A stretch of 34,497 bases of DNA from Terriglobales bacterium (GTDB lineage: Bacteria > Acidobacteriota > Terriglobia > Terriglobales > Acidobacteriaceae). The notes beneath the pieces were generated by a model, which saw only the letters and a program-made list of their open reading frames with translations, did not search any database and had not been told where the DNA came from. Below, piece by piece: positions 8,025 to 21,651 of the stretch. A program made the translations under genes and the position numbers. Where the stretch lies: positions 1 through 34,497 of the forward strand of contig JAMXLI010000278.1 of NCBI GenBank assembly GCA_024281115.1, written 5' to 3'. Positions within the stretch are counted from its first letter, which is position 1. Each line of letters starts with the position of its first letter.

Positions 8025-9089
8025 TTAGGCGGCGCCCGGATCCAGCCGTCGCGCGGGTTCCTGGTTGAACTCGCGTGCCGCCTCCCGACCCAGCTTCGTT
8101 AAGAAAGAGCGTGTCAACGCGGTCTCACTTTCCGCCCCGGGATGGCGCGCGGCGGCATCCCCCGGTTGGGGGAGCAGTCGGTTTACCCATCCGAGAAGGT
8201 CGGAAGTGAGTCCCGGCGCCAGCCCGTGCGCCAGCACGGCCAACTTGGCTTGCGGCGTAAGAACGATTTCCGCCTGCCCGCGCAATACGGCCGCCACGAT
8301 ACGGCGCGCGGCCCGGTTAGCGTTCATGGCGACGCCCGGTAGCGTCGCGCCCAGGCTGAACCAGGTGAATTCCTGGCGGTGATTCCCCTTGAAGTAGGCG
8401 TTCAGATGCGAACCGGTGCGCATCAGGCCAGGCACCGCGGTGGTCACGCGGATGTTGTAGCGCGCCAGCTCGGCGCGCAGTCCCTCGGAGAACCCGACGG
8501 CAGCAAACTTGGCGCAGCCGTACGGGACCAGGTGGGGAACAGCAATTTTCCCCCCGATGGAGGTGACGTTCCCAATGTGTCCTCCGCCGCGCCGAATCAT
8601 CTGCGGCAGCACGGCCAGGGTGGGATACACCATGCCCCAGAACATAACGTCCATGGCTTCGTGGTAGTCCACCAGGGTTTGCGAAGCTACGGGCCCCACC
8701 GCGATGATCCCGGCATTGTTAATGAGGACGTCAATGCCGCCGAACCGGGCGCTGGCCTCGTTCACCATGCGCACCACGTCCTCCTGCACGGTGACGTCGC
8801 AGGGGACGGCCAAGACTTCGGAGCCGCCGTCGGTCAACTCCGCGGCGGCGGCATCCAGTTCCCGCTCGTCGCGCGCGCACAGGACCAGTCGCGCTCCCTG
8901 CGCGGCAAATTCGCGTGCCATGGCTAGTCCCAGCCCGCGCGAGCCGCCGGTGATCAGAACCACCTTGCCGGCGGCGCTGGTCCGTGGACGCAGACGCGAA
9001 TACACCTCGTAGGCGGCCATCCCGGCGCCCACCCCCGCCGCTGCTATGCCCAAACCCGCCGCAGCGCCCAGCAAACCAGATCGCCGCAT
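8025..9089 (-). CDS. SDR family oxidoreductase with N-terminal hydrophobic segment
   Basis: TGGSRGLGLAMAREFA, NNAGI, YGCAKFA catalytic motifs. Start ATG at 9089 (MRRSGLLGAAAGLGIAAAGVGAG) chosen over the 9260 ORF start. Confidence 0.88.
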   Translation of the reverse strand: MRRSGLLGAAAGLGIAAAGVGAGMAAYEVYSRLRPRTSAAGKVVLITGGSRGLGLAMAREFAAQGARLVLCARDERELDAAAAELTDGGSEVLAVPCDVTVQEDVVRMVNEASARFGGIDVLINNAGIIAVGPVASQTLVDYHEAMDVMFWGMVYPTLAVLPQMIRRGGGHIGNVTSIGGKIAVPHLVPYGCAKFAAVGFSEGLRAELARYNIRVTTAVPGLMRTGSHLNAYFKGNHRQEFTWFSLGATLPGVAMNANRAARRIVAAVLRGQAEIVLTPQAKLAVLAHGLAPGLTSDLLGWVNRLLPQPGDAAARHPGAESETALTRSFLTKLGREAAREFNQEPARRLDPGAA

Positions 9090-9352
9090 GGTGCACCTTC
9101 TTCTATCGCAAATTGATATTTCTGAAGTGGTTGAGATGCGCTTGCCCGCCGGCGAGGATAGCTTCTCCCCGGTTTGTATTCCCAGGACGGCACCGGCATG
9201 AGCAGAAGTTTGCATCTTCGTCTCGCGCGCGGGAGTGGCACCTCGAAGAACCGACGGCATTTAGCAATGGATGGGGCTGGAAGCTAAATTGCGTGTTCGA
9301 ACGTCTTGCCCCTGGGTCCGCGCTCCCCGGACTCCAGGCTTTCGCAACCTTT

Positions 9353-12100
9353 ATGAGACAGATTGCCCTTCGTCGCGCGGTTCTAGGTAGCCTTGCGCTG
9401 CTGCTGACTCTCGCCCCATGCGGTTTTGTCCAGGCCCAGACCCTCACCGCGTCGCCCACGAGCTTGAGTTTCGGTGTGCACATGGTGGGCACCACCAGCG
9501 GTACGGGAACAGTGACTGTAACCAATCACTCCACTTCGGCGGTTCCCATCACCGGTGTGTCCGCCACTGGCGATTTCCACGTCGCCAGCAACGGATGCGG
9601 GGCGAGCCTGGCGGCCAGCGGCGCGTGCGCGGTGGGCGTGAACTTCCAGGCCACAGCCACCGGAACCCGGACGGGCACGCTGACAATCGCTTATTCCGCC
9701 AGCGGCAGCCCCGCTACCGTCAGCCTGAGCGGCACCGGGACCGACGTGGGAATGAGTCCCAACTCGCTGAATTTCGGCAGCCGCACGGTGGGCACCACCA
9801 CCGGTCCCTGGTCCACGACGGTGACCAATGGACTGAGCACGACTCTGACCATCAACTCCATGACGGTGGCCGGCGACTACAAGATTGCTTCCACCACTTG
9901 CGGAGGCACGCTCGCTTCCAAGGCGTCGTGCACCATCAGCGTGACCTTCACCCCGACCAACACGGGAACACGCAATGGCAGCGTGACCCTCAGCGACAGC
10001 GCACCCGACAGTCCGCACATTCTTTCGCTCTACGGCAGCGGAACGGCATCGGGGGTGACCGTGGTGCTATCCCCGACATCGGCGTCTTTGGGCGTATCTC
10101 AGAACCAGCAGTTCACGGCCACAGTGACCGGCAGCACCAACACGGCCGTCACCTGGTCGGTGGATGGTGTGGCGGCACCCGGCAATTCAACCGTGGGCAC
10201 GATCACCACCGCCGGGCTTTACACGGCGCCGGCTTCCGCGGGCACCCACACGGTGAAGGCCACCAGCCAGGCCGATAACAGCAAGAGCGCGAGCGCGGTT
10301 GTCACCGTGACCAATGGCGTGGCAGTGTCCATCGCGCCTGCGTCGGTCACGCTTGCGCCTTCCGCGCAGCAGCAGTTCACGGACACGGTATCGGGCACGT
10401 CGAACACGGCTGTGACCTGGTCGGTGGATGGCACGGTGGGCGGCAGCTCCGCCGCCGGCACGATTTCGAGCAGCGGCTTATACCTGGCCCCGGCCACGAC
10501 CGGCACGCACACGGTCACGGTCACCAGCCAGGCGGATACGACCAAGTCGGCGAGCGCGTCGGTCAACGTCACCACGACCCCACCCCCGCTGACCGGCGTG
10601 TTTACCTTCCACTACGACAACGGGCGCACCGGACTCAATCCGAACGAAACCGTTCTGACTCCCGCCAACGTGAACGCAACAAAGTTTGGGAAGCTTTTTA
10701 CTTACAACCTGGACGGGTACGTCTTCGGCCAGCCCCTCTACGTCGCCAACCTGACCTTTGCCAGCGGCGTGCACAACGTCATATACGTGGCCACGGAAAA
10801 TGACACCGTCTACGCGCTCGATGCCAATGGCAGGACGAGCACTCCCCTGTGGAAGGATACCTTCACCAACGCAGCGGCCGGGATCACGACCGTACCCTGC
10901 GCTGACGTTTCCGGCTGTTACATCGGGCCGAACATCGGGATTACGGCCACGCCGGTCATCGATCCGGCGAGCAGTACGCTATGGGTGATGGCCCGCACGA
11001 AGGAGAACGGAGCGTACTTCCACAAGCTGCACGCGCTCGACCTCGTGACTGGGGCGGAGAAATTCGGCGGCCCGGTTACGGTGAGCGCTTCGGTGGCGGG
11101 CAGCGGCCTGGGCACGGTCAATGGCCAGGTGGCGTTCAATCCGCTGAAGGAGCACAACCGCCCGGCGCTGATCCTGGTGAATGGCGTCGTGTACGCTGCC
11201 TTCGCCTCGCTCGACGACCAGAATCCTTATCATGGCTGGGTCATCGGGTACGCCGCCAACGCAGGCAGCAACACGATTTCGCGCGTGGCGGCCTATAACA
11301 CCAGCGCCAACGGCGGCCAAGGCGGCATCTGGAGCGTGGGCGGCGTGGCGGCCGATTCCAGCGGGAATCTCTACTTCGAGACCGGAAACGGCTCGTTCAA
11401 CGGCGGCAGCGATCTGGGCGACAGCTTCGTCAAGCTCTCCACCGCGGGAGGCGTGCTGCAGGTGGCCGACTACTTCACCCCGCACGACCAGGGCAACATG
11501 AACACGCAGGACCTTGACCTGGGCTCGGGAGGCCCCATGCTCTTGCCCAACCTGGGTGCGGTGGCGCATCCCGACGTGCTGGTGGGCGCAGGGAAAACCG
11601 GGACCATGTACCTGGTGGACCTGGGAAACATGGGTCATTACAGCTCGACCAGCGACGCGCAGATCGTGCAGTCCGTCGCCGGACAGTTGGGGCAGGTGTT
11701 CTCCACCCCAACTTACTGGAACAACACCATCTATTACTCCTCCACCAATGCCTACCTGAAGGCATTCACGCTGAGCAATGGGCTGCTCTCGACCACGCCG
11801 TCATCGCAGTCGAAGGTGTACTACGGCTACCCGGAAAGTCCCCTGATCACGGCCAATGGCAATACGAATGGAATCCTGTGGATCGAGCAACACATTGCCG
11901 GCTCCAACGGCGTGCTGCGCGCCTACGATGCCACCAACCTGGCCAACGAGATCTACAACAGCAACACCAATGCCACCCGCGACGGAATTACCAGCGTGCC
12001 CGGATTTGGGACGGTCCTGGCCTTCAACGGCAAGGTCTACGTACCCACCAAGAACCTGAATAACTCGCAGTCGCAACTCTTCATCTTCGGGCTGCTGTAG
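9353..12100 (+). CDS. Secreted multidomain protein: two choice-of-anchor D domains, two Ig-like repeats, PQQ-type beta-propeller-like C-terminus
   Basis: ATG at 9353 gives a signal peptide (MRQIALRRAVLGSLALLLTLAPCGFVQAQ). Duplicated SP.SL.FG...VGTT...VTN modules, duplicated NTAVTWSVDG...GLY.AP...GTHTV..TSQAD modules, then propeller-like repeats (VIYVATENDTVYALDANG). Confidence 0.8.
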   Translation: MRQIALRRAVLGSLALLLTLAPCGFVQAQTLTASPTSLSFGVHMVGTTSGTGTVTVTNHSTSAVPITGVSATGDFHVASNGCGASLAASGACAVGVNFQATATGTRTGTLTIAYSASGSPATVSLSGTGTDVGMSPNSLNFGSRTVGTTTGPWSTTVTNGLSTTLTINSMTVAGDYKIASTTCGGTLASKASCTISVTFTPTNTGTRNGSVTLSDSAPDSPHILSLYGSGTASGVTVVLSPTSASLGVSQNQQFTATVTGSTNTAVTWSVDGVAAPGNSTVGTITTAGLYTAPASAGTHTVKATSQADNSKSASAVVTVTNGVAVSIAPASVTLAPSAQQQFTDTVSGTSNTAVTWSVDGTVGGSSAAGTISSSGLYLAPATTGTHTVTVTSQADTTKSASASVNVTTTPPPLTGVFTFHYDNGRTGLNPNETVLTPANVNATKFGKLFTYNLDGYVFGQPLYVANLTFASGVHNVIYVATENDTVYALDANGRTSTPLWKDTFTNAAAGITTVPCADVSGCYIGPNIGITATPVIDPASSTLWVMARTKENGAYFHKLHALDLVTGAEKFGGPVTVSASVAGSGLGTVNGQVAFNPLKEHNRPALILVNGVVYAAFASLDDQNPYHGWVIGYAANAGSNTISRVAAYNTSANGGQGGIWSVGGVAADSSGNLYFETGNGSFNGGSDLGDSFVKLSTAGGVLQVADYFTPHDQGNMNTQDLDLGSGGPMLLPNLGAVAHPDVLVGAGKTGTMYLVDLGNMGHYSSTSDAQIVQSVAGQLGQVFSTPTYWNNTIYYSSTNAYLKAFTLSNGLLSTTPSSQSKVYYGYPESPLITANGNTNGILWIEQHIAGSNGVLRAYDATNLANEIYNSNTNATRDGITSVPGFGTVLAFNGKVYVPTKNLNNSQSQLFIFGLL
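10061..10581 (+). repeat. Tandem intragenic duplication encoding two Ig-like modules (approximate bounds)
   Basis: Modules VVLSPTSASLGVSQNQQFTATVTGSTNTAVTWSVDG...TSQADNSKSASAVVTVT and VSIAPASVTLAPSAQQQFTDTVSGTSNTAVTWSVDG...TSQADTTKSASASVNVT; the DNA shares acctggtcggtggatgg. Confidence 0.8.
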
Positions 12101-13810: not shown

Positions 13811-15028
13811 ATGTCTAAAGCCATCAAGTGGTCTGTGATCATGCTTTCGCTGGCGGCCGTGCTGTTTGTCGCGGCCGGCAGCCTGGTTGTGCGCGCCTCC
13901 AGCAACGACGGCGCCTATCGCCAGATCGGGGTGTACAGCGAGGTGCTCTCGCGCATCCGCAGCGAATACGTCGAAGAACCCAACATGGCTTCGGTGACCG
14001 ACGGCGCGCTGCATGGGCTGCTGGAATCGCTGGACGCCAACTCCAGCTACCTGTCGCCCGAGCAGTACAAGGCCTTCAAGGCCCATCCCAAGACGGGCAA
14101 GGCGGACATCGGGGCCGCCGTCTCCAAGCGCTTCGGCTACGCGGCGGTGATCGCCGTCATTCCGGGCGGGCCGGCCGAGAAAGCCGGCGTGCAGAATTCC
14201 GACATCATCGAGGCCATCGAGAGCAAGAGCACGCGCGACATGTCGCTGGCTGAAATTCACGAAATGCTGGCCGGGCAGCAGGGCTCGACCGTCAGCGTCT
14301 CCGTAGTGCGGGCGCGCCGCGCCGAGCCGCAGAAGATCAGCATCACCCGCGATGTGGTGCCCATCCCGGCGGTGACCGAGCGGGAGATGCCCGACGGCAT
14401 CGGCTATCTCAAGACCGACACCCTGGTGAAGGGCAAGAGCCAGGAGATTGCGAACAAAATCAAGGCTCTGGAGAAGCAGGGCGCCAAGAAGCTGCTGCTC
14501 GATCTGCGGAATTGCGCGGAGGGCGACGAAGACGAGGGCGTTGCCGTGGCCAACCTCTTCCTCAACCACGGCACGATCGGCTACGTGCAGGGACAAAAGT
14601 ATCCCCGCAAGGTCTTCAACGCTGACCCGCAGAAGGCCATCACCCGCCTGCCGCTGGTGGTGCTGGTGAACCGGGGCACGGCCGGGCCGGCCGAAGTTGT
14701 GGCCGCCGCCATCCAGGACAACGGCCGCGGCGATCTGGTGGGCGATAAGACGTTCGGTGTGGGCTCGATTTCCAAGGTCATCGAGGTCCCTGACGGGTCC
14801 GCGCTCATTCTGTCGGTGGCCAAGTACTACACGCCCGCGGGCAAGGCCATTGCAGACGCCGCGGTCACTCCCAACATCGTGGTTGCCGATAACGACGATG
14901 ACTCGGCGCTGCCGGATGACGAGGACAATGCCGCACCCAGCGACCAGGAAAAGAAGGTCGAGCAGCCCAAGGAAGATCAGCAACTGCACAAGGGCATTGA
15001 GGTCCTGGAAAATCGCAAACCCGCCTAG
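13811..15028 (+). CDS. Membrane-anchored S41-family PDZ protein (CtpA-like), predicted catalytically inactive
   Basis: ATG at 13811. N-terminal TM (WSVIMLSLAAVLFVAAGSLVV), PDZ (ADIGAAVSKRFGYAAVIAVIPGGPAEKAGVQNSDIIEAI), S41 core VVLVNRGTAGPAEVVAAAIQDNGRGDLVGDKTFGVGSISKVIEVPDGSALILSVAKYYTPAGKAI. Confidence 0.9.
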   Translation: MSKAIKWSVIMLSLAAVLFVAAGSLVVRASSNDGAYRQIGVYSEVLSRIRSEYVEEPNMASVTDGALHGLLESLDANSSYLSPEQYKAFKAHPKTGKADIGAAVSKRFGYAAVIAVIPGGPAEKAGVQNSDIIEAIESKSTRDMSLAEIHEMLAGQQGSTVSVSVVRARRAEPQKISITRDVVPIPAVTEREMPDGIGYLKTDTLVKGKSQEIANKIKALEKQGAKKLLLDLRNCAEGDEDEGVAVANLFLNHGTIGYVQGQKYPRKVFNADPQKAITRLPLVVLVNRGTAGPAEVVAAAIQDNGRGDLVGDKTFGVGSISKVIEVPDGSALILSVAKYYTPAGKAIADAAVTPNIVVADNDDDSALPDDEDNAAPSDQEKKVEQPKEDQQLHKGIEVLENRKPA

Positions 15029-15048
15029 CAGCCGGCTTTGAAGACCCG

Positions 15049-15079
15049 GAGACGCAGCGCGCTGCGTCTCTTTTCTTTT
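15049..15079 (+). terminator. Intrinsic terminator of the S41 gene
   Basis: Perfect palindrome GAGACGCAGCG|CGCTGCGTCTC (15049-15070) followed by TTTTCTTTT. Confidence 0.85.
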
Positions 15080-15164: not shown

Positions 15165-15533
15165 TCAGTTAGGCTTGCGCGATTTGGACGTAAGCCGGTG
15201 CAGCTCGAAAAGCTCTTCGCTCGCGGCGCTCATGCGCTCCAGAAACGAGCGTGCTTCATCGTCCTCGCTAGAGTTCGACCGGCGCTGCAGCGCATCGCGG
15301 AGCTTCTGACCAAAATCCGAGTCGTTGTCCACCACCTTGAAGTAGAACCATAGGAAGTGGCGCATCTGGTCGAGCGCTGCCCGCAAGGTCTGCAGGGATT
15401 CGAGCGTGACCACTTCCGCCAGGCGGTCGAGCTCAGGGTCTTGCTGCGGCTGGATGGCCGCCCAATTCAACTCCTGCTGGATGGCGCGCAGGTCTTCGGT
15501 GACGCGTTGAATCCGGGCATTCATGTCGTCCAT
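15165..15533 (-). CDS. Conserved-looking hypothetical protein, helical
   Basis: 122 aa, intact ORF with charged helical composition (MDDMNARIQRVTEDLRAIQQELNW...LRAALDQMRHFLWFYFKVVDND...). No family recognised. Confidence 0.6.
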   Translation of the reverse strand: MDDMNARIQRVTEDLRAIQQELNWAAIQPQQDPELDRLAEVVTLESLQTLRAALDQMRHFLWFYFKVVDNDSDFGQKLRDALQRRSNSSEDDEARSFLERMSAASEELFELHRLTSKSRKPN

Positions 15534-17221: not shown

Positions 17222-19006
17222 ATGACGTGGCGGCTCCCCTGGTTGGTCCTCCTCCTGGCCGCCGGACCCTTGTTGGCCCAGGTCCCGGCTCCCGCAAACG
17301 GCAGCAACGACGGCAACAATGGCGCAGTTCTCGTGGAGAAAAACGTGGCAGTGCCCATGCGCGACGGAGTGGTGTTGCGCGCAGACGTGCTGCGCCCGCG
17401 AGGCCAGGGACGCTTCCCCACGCTCGTCTACCGCACACCCTACGGCAAGCACAATGCGCTCGGCGAATTTGTTATCTTCCGCCGCGCCGCCGAACGCGGC
17501 TATGCGGTCGTCGCCCAGGACGTGCGCGGCCGCTACGCTTCCGCCGGCGAGTTCTCTGCCTACCACCAGGAAGGCGCGGATGGATACGACACCATCGAGT
17601 GGGCGGCGCGCCAGCCCTGGTCCGACGGCAACATCGGAACCTTCGGCCTGTCCTATCCCGGCGCGGTGCAGTGGCTGGCCGCGGTCGAGGCGCCGCCCCA
17701 CCTCAAAGCCATGGTGCCGGCCATGACGTTGTCCACGCCGCGCCAGTTCTTCTATTCCAGCGGCGCCTGGGACATGTCGTGGATCGAGTGGATCTGGAAC
17801 AACATCGCGCCGGACGCGCGCGTGAAGAAAAATCTCCCCGGCCCGCGCACCGAGCCCGAGGCCCTCGCGCAATGGGAGCAGAAGCACGAAAGCTTCGAGC
17901 GCGCGTTGCCCCTGCAATCGCTCGAGCCCTTGCGCCAGGTCGCTCCCTATTACTTCCAGTGGCTGGATCATCCACCGGACGATTCCTGGTGGAATTGGGC
18001 CGAACTGCGCGACAAGTATGACCGCGTCAGTGCTGCTGTGCTGAACCTCTCCGGCTGGTACGACGAAGATTATGGGCCTGAGGGCGCAACCACCAATTTT
18101 CTGGGGCTGCTGGCGTCACGCCGGAGCGCCGGCGATCCACGCACGCAGTTGCTGATCGGGCCATGGATCCACGGGGTGGAAGAGACCGGGATCACGCACT
18201 CCGGAGAGCGCGAGTTTGGCCCGGCCGCCCGCCTGGATTACGACCAGGTTGTTCTCGCCTGGATGGACCACTACCTGCGCGGGGCCGCCAATGGCGTGGA
18301 GCGCCAGGCCGCGGTGCGCCTGTTCGTCATGGGCGATAACCGCTGGCGCGACGAGCCGTCCTGGCCTCCCCCTGCCGCTCGCGGCACTTCGTTTTACCTG
18401 GCCGGCGGTGGGAAGAGCGTGCGCGGCAAGCTCCAGCCGGTGGCGCCCGCGGACGAGCAGGTGAGCGTGTTCACTTCCGATCCCGCCGACCCGGTTATCG
18501 ATCCTTATGCCGGACGCCTGGGCGCGCACGATTATCGCGACCTGGCACGCCGCTCCGACGTGCTGCTTTTTGACAGCGAGCCCTTGGCCAAAGATCTCGA
18601 GGCGCTGGGGCCGGTCACCGCTGAAATCTATACGGCGTGCGACTGCCCCGATTTCGACCTGTGGGTTCGCCTGCTGGACGTAGGGCCGGACGGCACGGCT
18701 TTCAACCTGATGAGCCCCGGGTCGGACGTGCTGCGCGCCAGTTACCGCGACCCGGCGCACCGTGCCCTGCTCACTCCGGGTGAGGTGTACAAGCTGGTGC
18801 TGCCCAACATGCGCACCGGGAATGTGTTCAAGGCCGGACACCGCATTCGCGTGCAGCTCTCGGCGTCGTTTTTCCCGGCTTTTTCGCGAAACCTGCAGAG
18901 CGGGGAGCTGGAGTCTACGTCGGCCAAAATGCGCGCGGCCAGCATTCGCATCTACCACGACACGGAGCACGCCTCGCGCCTGGTGTTGCCGGTGATTCCC
19001 CGATGA
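17222..19006 (+). CDS. CocE/NonD family hydrolase (X-Pro dipeptidyl-peptidase S15-like), secreted
   Basis: Signal peptide MTWRLPWLVLLLAAGPLLAQ. VPMRDGVVLRADVLRP, GTFGLSYPGAVQWLAA nucleophile elbow, LLIGPWIHG, CDCPDFDLWVRLLDV. Confidence 0.9.
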   Translation: MTWRLPWLVLLLAAGPLLAQVPAPANGSNDGNNGAVLVEKNVAVPMRDGVVLRADVLRPRGQGRFPTLVYRTPYGKHNALGEFVIFRRAAERGYAVVAQDVRGRYASAGEFSAYHQEGADGYDTIEWAARQPWSDGNIGTFGLSYPGAVQWLAAVEAPPHLKAMVPAMTLSTPRQFFYSSGAWDMSWIEWIWNNIAPDARVKKNLPGPRTEPEALAQWEQKHESFERALPLQSLEPLRQVAPYYFQWLDHPPDDSWWNWAELRDKYDRVSAAVLNLSGWYDEDYGPEGATTNFLGLLASRRSAGDPRTQLLIGPWIHGVEETGITHSGEREFGPAARLDYDQVVLAWMDHYLRGAANGVERQAAVRLFVMGDNRWRDEPSWPPPAARGTSFYLAGGGKSVRGKLQPVAPADEQVSVFTSDPADPVIDPYAGRLGAHDYRDLARRSDVLLFDSEPLAKDLEALGPVTAEIYTACDCPDFDLWVRLLDVGPDGTAFNLMSPGSDVLRASYRDPAHRALLTPGEVYKLVLPNMRTGNVFKAGHRIRVQLSASFFPAFSRNLQSGELESTSAKMRAASIRIYHDTEHASRLVLPVIPR

Positions 19007-21651
19007 AAAACCCACTAGCGGTGAACGCGATGCGAGCGCTCCTTTGTGCCTCGGCAGCATGCTTTCTGGTTGTTCCGGCCGGGGCGCAACGCAAGCCCGT
19101 GCTCGGGCAGATCCAGCTTCCGCACCCGTACTACTACCGCGAGATGTACCTGCCGCAACTCACCACCGGGCCGAGCGCCGCCGCCTGGTCGCCTGATTCG
19201 AAGTCGCTCATTTATTCCATGGCGGGCTCGCTCTGGCGACAGGCCCTGGGAACTCACTCTGCGCAACAGCTTACCGCCGGTCCCGGCTACGACTACCAGC
19301 CCGATTGGTCGCGCGACGGGCGCTGGGTGGCGTACGTCTCCTATCGCGGCAATGCCATGGAACTGCATGCGCTCGACCTGCAATCGGGGCGCTCGACGCA
19401 GCTCACCAGCGGCGGCAACGTGAACCTGGAGCCGCGCTTTTCGCCCGATGGCAAGCGCATCGTCTTCGTCTCCACCGCCTACAACGGCCGCTTCCACATC
19501 TTTACCGGGGACTTCCACGAGGGCGCCCTGGCCAATTTGCAGCGCATCACCGGTGAGACCCGCAGCACGCTGCCGCGTTACTACTACAGCGCCTTTGATA
19601 CCGAGATCAGCCCAACGTGGTCGCCCGACGGAAGGGAAATCGTCTTCGTCGGTAACCGCGGGCACATTTACGGCAGCGGCGGCTTGTGGCGGATGAAAGC
19701 GGAGCCCGGCGCGCCCGCCCGCGAACTGCATTACGAAGAGACCACCTGGAAGGCGCGCCCCGACTGGTCGCCCGACGGGAGGCGGTTGGTGTACGCATCC
19801 TACCTGGGGCAGCAATGGCACCAGTTGTGGTCCCTGCCTGCCGAGGGCGGTTTCGCGATTCCACTTTCGTATGACTCGCTGTCGGAATTTGGACATCCGG
19901 CTAACCAACTGCGGCGCGGTTACGACAACATCAATCCGCGGTGGTCGCCGGACGGGAAATACATCGCCTTTATCTCCAATCGCGAAGGCAACACGGCGCT
20001 CTGGGTGCAGGAAGTAGCCGGCGGTTACCAGTGGCCGGTCACCGTCCCCGATTCATCTCCGCCCGGCGCCAGCAAAATGCCCCACGAACGCCGTTATCTC
20101 AATCCGATGGGGCAATTGTCGATCCACGTTGTCGGCCCTGACGGCGGGCCCACCCCGGCCAGGATTGCCGTGCGCGGCAGCGATGGCCGTGCCTATGCGC
20201 CCGACAGACTCTGGATGCACGCTGATGACAGCTTCGATCCCGGCCAGCCGGAGTTCGAGGCGCACTACTTCCACGCTCCCGGCCAGGCGCAGTTGGCGCT
20301 GCCCGCCGGCGAAGCCACAGTCGAAGTGACCAAGGGCCTGGAGTACGCGGTACGCGTCAGTAAAGTGCGGATTGCGGCCGGCGAAACCACGGAATTGAAT
20401 GTCCGCCTGGAACCGCTGGAGGGAGTGGCAGCGGCTGCCGGCGGCTTCACTCGCGGGGAGGCGCGTTGGGCTTCAGCCGACCTGCACGTGCACATGAACT
20501 ACGCCGGCACGTACCGCAACACGCCCACGCACCTGGCGGAACAAGGCGAAGCCGAGAACCTGGCCTTGATTGAGGACCTTGTGGTCAACAAGGAACTCCG
20601 CTTCCCCGACATCGCCTACTTTCGCACGGATCCGGATCCTGCCTCCAACGCGCGCATCACCCTCACCCACAACCAGGAGTTCCACACCAGCTATTGGGGC
20701 CACCTCGGGCTGCTGCACCTCGCGCGCAATTTCCTGCTGCCCGGCTACGCCGGATATCCCGATACTTTCGCGGCCAGCCTGGTTCCAACCAACGTCGATG
20801 TTGCCGACCTGGCGCACGCGCAGCAAGGCGTGGTCGGCTACGTCCATCCTTTCGAAAGCGTTCCCGATCCCAGGGGTACTGATCCGCTGACCAACGAGCT
20901 GCCGGTGGATGTCGCGCTGGGCAAGGTGGATTACATCGAGGTGTTGGGCTTCAGCGACCACAAGAGCACGGCGGAGGTCTGGTACAAGCTGCTGAATTGC
21001 GGGTTCCACCTTCCCACGGGCGCGGGCACAGACGCGATGGCGAATTTCGCTTCGTTGCGCGGGCCCGTAGGACTCAACCGCGTCTATGCGGAACTTACGC
21101 CCGGTCCCTTCAGCCACGAAAAATTCCTCGAGGCCTTGCGGAGCGGCCGCACTTTCGCCAGCAATGGCCCCCTGCTGGGATTTTCCATGGCCGGGGAGGG
21201 GATTGGAGGCGAACTGAAGCTTGCCCAACCGCAGCCGGCGGTGAAATTCACGGCCTGGCTTCGTTCCATTGCGCCGGTAGACCACCTGCAGGTAGTTTGC
21301 GATGGCGAAGTAGTGCGCGACTTGCCGCTCACGGGAGACCGCACGCGCGCCGATGTCTCCTCGACTCTGCCCATCAACCGCAGCGGCTGGTGCGTCCTGC
21401 GCGCCTGGAGTGAGCGACCCGAGCACCCCGTTCTCGACCTCTATCCCTACGCCACTACCAGCCCGATTTATGTCAGCGTTGCCGGCGCGCCTGCACGCTC
21501 GCCACGCGACGCGGACTATTTCGTCGCCTGGATTGATCGCCTGGTCCAGGCCGCAAACGGGTTTACGGATTGGAACACGCCCGCGGAAAAGCAGTTGGTC
21601 CAGAAACAACTCTCGGACGCGCGCGCGGTGTTCGCGGCGCTGTTGCATTGA
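19003..21651 (+). CDS. TolB-like beta-propeller (PD40) fused to CehA/McbA-type PHP metallohydrolase domain
   Basis: Repeated WSPDG/FSPDG blades (residues ~60-340). C-terminal DLHVHMNYAGTY, NQEFHTSYWGHLGLL, VGYVHPFE, GAGTDAM, EALRSGRTFASNGP. ATGA overlap with the CocE gene. Confidence 0.85.
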   Translation: MKNPLAVNAMRALLCASAACFLVVPAGAQRKPVLGQIQLPHPYYYREMYLPQLTTGPSAAAWSPDSKSLIYSMAGSLWRQALGTHSAQQLTAGPGYDYQPDWSRDGRWVAYVSYRGNAMELHALDLQSGRSTQLTSGGNVNLEPRFSPDGKRIVFVSTAYNGRFHIFTGDFHEGALANLQRITGETRSTLPRYYYSAFDTEISPTWSPDGREIVFVGNRGHIYGSGGLWRMKAEPGAPARELHYEETTWKARPDWSPDGRRLVYASYLGQQWHQLWSLPAEGGFAIPLSYDSLSEFGHPANQLRRGYDNINPRWSPDGKYIAFISNREGNTALWVQEVAGGYQWPVTVPDSSPPGASKMPHERRYLNPMGQLSIHVVGPDGGPTPARIAVRGSDGRAYAPDRLWMHADDSFDPGQPEFEAHYFHAPGQAQLALPAGEATVEVTKGLEYAVRVSKVRIAAGETTELNVRLEPLEGVAAAAGGFTRGEARWASADLHVHMNYAGTYRNTPTHLAEQGEAENLALIEDLVVNKELRFPDIAYFRTDPDPASNARITLTHNQEFHTSYWGHLGLLHLARNFLLPGYAGYPDTFAASLVPTNVDVADLAHAQQGVVGYVHPFESVPDPRGTDPLTNELPVDVALGKVDYIEVLGFSDHKSTAEVWYKLLNCGFHLPTGAGTDAMANFASLRGPVGLNRVYAELTPGPFSHEKFLEALRSGRTFASNGPLLGFSMAGEGIGGELKLAQPQPAVKFTAWLRSIAPVDHLQVVCDGEVVRDLPLTGDRTRADVSSTLPINRSGWCVLRAWSERPEHPVLDLYPYATTSPIYVSVAGAPARSPRDADYFVAWIDRLVQAANGFTDWNTPAEKQLVQKQLSDARAVFAALLH

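Follow-up and report, generated by a model that had tools for sequence, protein, structure and literature searches.

An acidobacterial CtpA-like protein without its Ser-Lys dyad is a predicted pseudoprotease

Introduction

Proteases of the CtpA/Prc type are best known for destroying cell-wall enzymes. The active site of bacterial CTPs is described as a Ser-Lys dyad (PMC11021448), and a gene that encodes the CtpA body without this dyad raises the question of whether its product still cuts and, if not, what it has been kept for. We examined one such gene within a window of 34,497 nucleotides from a Terriglobales bacterium. It corresponds to contig C278 of a draft genome in 349 contigs; the relatives of this genome among public data belong to Acidobacteriaceae and other Terriglobia. 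A first reading of these letters (the original prediction) had placed Gly, Val and Ser under the catalytic Ser, Lys and Gln and proposed a pseudoprotease with a non-proteolytic role.

Results

The window protein retains the architecture of CtpA

The start codon of the gene is best taken as the ATG at 13811, over a longer GTG frame, because the MSK...K N-terminal start is conserved in relatives. The protein that follows (Table 1) exceeds the NCBIfam cut-off for TIGR00225 and, consistent with the expectation of an intact PDZ domain and surrounding fold, its open frame matches PF17820, PF13180 and PF03572 (the last at 131.6 bits). An AF2 model built from 34 sequences (mean pLDDT 79.7), which is evidence on fold and not on binding, found its best Foldseek matches in the CtpAs of Helicobacter pylori and Pseudomonas aeruginosa (E about 1e-33). 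These matches include the solved H. pylori triple mutant S300A/K325A/Q329A (9ku3) – a structure that retains the CtpA fold, so that a CtpA without its triad evidently keeps its fold.

Both ends of the protein resemble oligomerisation regions of solved CtpAs. Within the region that aligns with the CtpA N-terminal dimerisation region (NDR; PMC11021448), Y53, V54, P57 and G69 are invariant in the alignment of relatives, and the family's C-terminal motif aligns with that of H. pylori CtpA (a weak second match in the profile comparison). The fold and PDZ domain of CtpA are retained in the window protein, along with conserved residues of the dimerisation region and the C-terminal helix. Its family thus shares fold, domain order, similar length and N- and C-terminal oligomerisation regions with the CtpAs of P. 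aeruginosa (7rpq/8sxe) and H. pylori (9jr1/9ku3), but lacks their catalytic Ser, Lys and oxyanion loop.

The gene had also been credited with its own promoter and terminator. A scan of the upstream plus strand found no consensus promoter; a terminator-like hairpin is indeed present downstream, though a single such site is no excess over shuffled sequence (1 against 1.3).

Table 1. Features of the window gene and its product (window coordinates)
Feature	Position	Strand	Basis
Dead CtpA-type S41/PDZ protein, 405 aa	13811..15028	+	PF03572 + PDZ; TIGR00225 prc 224.8 bits
N-terminal membrane anchor/signal helix, residues 3-25	13817..13885	+	AF2 secondary structure; hydrophobic
N-terminal helical region resembling CtpA dimerisation region, residues 37-74	13919..14032	+	Alignment, AF2
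PDZ domain, residues 98-170	14102..14320	+	Pfam PF17820/PF13180
Peptidase_S41 core, residues 197-358	14399..14884	+	Pfam; fold match to CtpA
Degenerate oxyanion-hole loop DLRNCAEGDEDE replacing DLRxNPGGLL	14501..14536	+	Alignment
Gly292, catalytic Ser position	14684..14686	+	Alignment
Val317, catalytic Lys position	14759..14761	+	Alignment
Ser321, Gln position; private change	14771..14773	+	Alignment
C-terminal helix, residues 390-401, resembling H. pylori CtpA C-terminal motif	14978..15013	+	AF2, profile
Terminator-like hairpin + T tail	15048..15071	+	Hairpin scan; weak alone

Loss of the Ser and Lys is shared across Acidobacteriota

Aligned position by position with the CtpAs of H. pylori and P. 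aeruginosa, the window protein shows the predicted Gly, Val and Ser replacements, and the codon positions assigned to them were exact. To place these changes within the phylum, we searched 61 genomes, all of which gave at least one S41/PDZ match. Nearly all carry two kinds – a form of ~400 aa like the query and a longer one, with an open frame of about 540-600 aa and ~35% identity to the query. With a strict cut-off for the small family (E <= 1e-75), 131 of 247 sampled Acidobacteriota genomes gave a match, nearly always to the small form. Many of the genomes analysed are metagenome assemblies.

Active-site columns were read in 174 distinct sequences, with 140 members making up the dead-family table and 28 long paralogues serving as the active comparison. 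At the Ser position the dead family has Gly in 129 members, Asn in five, Ser in three, Gln in two and Ala in one. The Lys column appears unconstrained, with 15 different residues (E30, D21, R20, V14, A11, I9, L9, S6, Q6, N4, M4, T3, F1, H1, K1), and at the Gln position 120 members have Gln, 13 Arg and three Leu, with four singletons. The long paralogues read Ser in 28, Lys in 28 and Gln in 27, and S-K-Q is found in all eight CtpAs checked from other phyla (six plasmid-borne S41 genes and two PDB chains). The window genome's own paralogue (L002, on C306; a 562-aa open frame) has S-K-Q and NPGG intact. A third S41-domain reading frame in that genome (C195:388-852, L188) scores 60 bits.

Ser and Lys are thus lost across the family, and Gln is mostly retained for some non-catalytic reason; the Gln-to-Ser change is private to the window genome. 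Replacement of the whole triad, as originally described, holds for this genome and not for the clade. Common to ~140 family members, the loss of Ser and Lys is far beyond chance. Partial losses were also seen, with Lys kept and Ser lost in L144, and Ser kept and Lys lost in L173, L104 and L047.

The oxyanion loop has degenerated along with the dyad. NPGG is strongly conserved in active forms (N 0.96, P 0.86, G 1.00, G 1.00), whereas the dead family keeps only the last G, the N, P and first G not being conserved. The window protein reads NCAEGD here, and in many members of its family the loop has turned acidic, with a G-[DE]-x-x-E-[GA] pattern that is not conserved outside Terriglobia. Alternative catalytic residues nearby, which would have argued against a pseudoprotease, were sought by column analysis: no Ser/Thr/Lys/His/Cys pair near the site shows conservation restricted to the dead family. 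Judged against MEROPS S41A/CtpA, the window protein has the overall sequence and fold and lacks the Ser-Lys dyad, the auxiliary Gln and the NPGG loop. From these residues, its inactivity as a protease is strongly supported, and we regard it as very probably not an S41 protease.

The active site was probably lost more than once

The small family is monophyletic with 100/100 support relative to the long paralogue and outside CtpAs, and it contains two lineages that keep S-K-Q (L132/L136/L137 and L172). Because these few members retain the full set, several independent losses of the active site are the probable history. A single loss, with all dead forms in one clade free of S-K-Q members, was rejected by the AU test (p 8e-12, to be taken with care as the group was named after the tree was seen). 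With the root of the S41 tree not fixed, six losses of the Ser and Lys pair are needed if no regain is allowed and three changes under ordinary parsimony; the active site may have been regained through single-base changes. The four S-K-Q members offer ready-made active counterparts with which to compare the dead family.

Purifying selection maintains the dead form

Between closely related dead forms dN/dS is mostly 0.03-0.2, similar to the 0.06-0.18 of active paralogues. The pairs behind two higher values (0.36 and 0.41) have stop-to-stop frames that extend well beyond the ~400-aa protein, so these comparisons may take in non-coding sequence. None of the copies that the genome searches listed contains an internal stop. 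Purifying selection acts on the dead form, and the phylum-wide clade, the shared loss of the dyad and the low dN/dS rule out decay in a single genome – the other outcome that would have contradicted the original prediction.

The window protein thus combines a homologous fold, lost catalytic residues and a gene under selection, as expected of an S41 pseudoenzyme. The proposal of a pseudoprotease with a non-proteolytic role is supported by the clade-wide loss of Ser and Lys, the degenerate oxyanion loop and purifying selection, and is further backed by the lack of a conserved replacement dyad and by the active paralogue in the same genome.

Peptidoglycan genes adjoin many members of the small family

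We examined the genomic context of the small family for clues to its role. A peptidoglycan gene lies beside the dead S41 gene in 99 of 140 loci (about 70%), whereas EnvC, YibQ, PBP1a or MltG lies beside the long active paralogue in none of 29 loci; these counts treat loci as independent despite common ancestry, and some flanks span only 1.5 kb. In the window's family the neighbor is PBP1a: at 45 loci it follows downstream, encoded on the strand of the S41 gene. In other lineages MltG adjoins 34 small-family loci, a YibQ-like deacetylase lies downstream in five dead and two active small loci, and a gene for an EnvC-like coiled-coil/M23 protein immediately precedes the S41 gene, in the same orientation, at 24 dead and three active small loci. 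The EnvC-like neighbors, whose best NCBIfam match is EnvC at a score below the cut-off, were seen in lineages outside the window's family.

These arrangements recall a known system. EnvC is itself a wall-enzyme fold turned non-catalytic regulator, of the M23/LytM fold and unrelated to S41. The ctpA gene of P. aeruginosa, which controls cell-wall endopeptidases, is the middle gene of envC-ctpA-PA5135 (PMC12569750), and other-lineage loci of the small family match this gene order. Some members match the envC-ctpA-yibQ context described in that study: the gene lies between envC and yibQ in L112, L132, L133 and L137, and the S-K-Q members L132, L136 and L137 all adjoin EnvC, with a YibQ-like gene at two of the three. 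In the EnvC homologue at L112, YLYFE stands in place of the HxH of M23 enzymes. EnvC offers a precedent, within the same operon, for a catalytic fold becoming a non-catalytic regulator.

The window's family differs from the CtpA of the envC operon in adjoining PBP1a or nothing, and not EnvC. Because full-length EnvC was not found in the nine genomes of this family searched, the partner cannot be EnvC everywhere, and EnvC as a universal partner is not supported. At L036 a terminator-like hairpin separates the S41 gene from PBP1a, so we read this pair as adjacent and not as an operon. HU and thrS-infC-rplT-pheS, often found downstream of the dead gene in other lineages (the L084-L149 set), form a long conserved chromosomal neighborhood, and their adjacency is likely plain synteny.

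At the window's own locus the gene is flanked by an SDR gene and a permease gene rather than by envC and yibQ, with rpiA also present, and has no peptidoglycan neighbor. PBP1a does not adjoin it; the best match in this genome is on C144. Elsewhere in the window we observed a 122-aa open frame downstream on the opposite strand (15165-15533, minus), a possible small protein for which no Pfam or NCBIfam match was found; an 882-aa protein (19003-21651, plus) with PD40/TolB-like propeller repeats and a CehA/McbA metallohydrolase domain; and a 1038-aa open frame (8984-12100, plus) with repeated Ig-like stretches in its translation and an uncertain start codon.

Discussion

What, then, might a dead CtpA be kept for? 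Given the family's neighbors (EnvC, YibQ, PBP1a and MltG), a peptidoglycan-related role for the window protein is reasonably likely. We lean toward a membrane-anchored periplasmic pseudoprotease, related to the envC-operon CtpA, that scaffolds or sequesters peptidoglycan enzymes without degrading them; scaffolding or sequestration as the mode of action is an even call. As the PDZ domain and fold are retained, both this domain and the dead groove would serve to bind partners. Candidates are cell-wall hydrolases or synthases, recognised by their C-termini or by extended segments, or else an adaptor. Bound wall enzymes would be scaffolded or sequestered instead of degraded, with proteolysis left to the separate long CtpA paralogue – which, in the window genome, belongs to the same S41/PDZ family but differs in its intact site and length, its separate clade and its lack of peptidoglycan neighbors.

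That paralogue also suggests an unlikely alternative, in which the dead protein is a regulatory subunit of the long S-K-Q CtpA – joining it as the inactive partner in a mixed dimer or hexamer and activating, restraining or aiming it. A long active-type homologue accompanies the dead form in nearly every relative searched, and those read are S-K-Q. The dead family also conserves residues of the dimerisation region. In the P. aeruginosa CtpA-LbcA complex, moreover, one protomer per dimer is inactive and its PDZ domain aids assembly (PMC11021448). However, the dead and long proteins are only ~35% identical and differ in length and C-terminus, and their genes were not seen as neighbors at the loci surveyed.

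It is less probable still that the dead groove has been reused for a lipid, a wall fragment or another small ligand. Interphotoreceptor retinoid-binding protein (IRBP, or retinol-binding protein 3), an animal protein that binds retinoids, provides a precedent for an S41-type fold without a protease role, and the family profile matches IRBP in the PDB at 3.4e-15. The acidic stretch in the oxyanion loop of many window-family members would fit such a binder, but its lack of conservation outside Terriglobia does not, and the dead family retains a PDZ domain whereas IRBP modules have none.

The last two readings are poorly supported. Continued proteolysis with a different nucleophile or base is very improbable: Thr290, two residues before the Ser position, is 93% conserved, Gln is mostly retained and three of the members without Lys keep Ser, but Thr at this position is also common in active enzymes, the NPGG loop is gone, and the unconstrained Lys position has gained no conserved basic residue in its vicinity. 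A gene decaying on its way to loss is scarcely credible, since the private Gln-to-Ser change that might suggest it is set against the gene's presence across the phylum, the intact frames of all listed copies and a dN/dS that in close pairs mostly stays well under 0.25.

Returning to a non-degrading binder of wall enzymes, we raise one broader idea tentatively, thinking it rather doubtful: that repeated independent loss of the dyad turned an envC-operon CtpA into a PDZ scaffold coupling PBP1a synthesis with EnvC/MltG-type hydrolysis in Acidobacteriota. We found no earlier description of a bacterial S41 pseudoprotease in the open-access literature searched. The family also warns that the annotation 'C-terminal processing peptidase' misleads for many acidobacterial genes; the dead window protein passes the NCBIfam TIGR00225 cut-off. 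If our reading is correct, the body of a protease was kept among wall genes while its active site was dropped, probably more than once, and binding – not cutting – would be what has been selected in Acidobacteriota.
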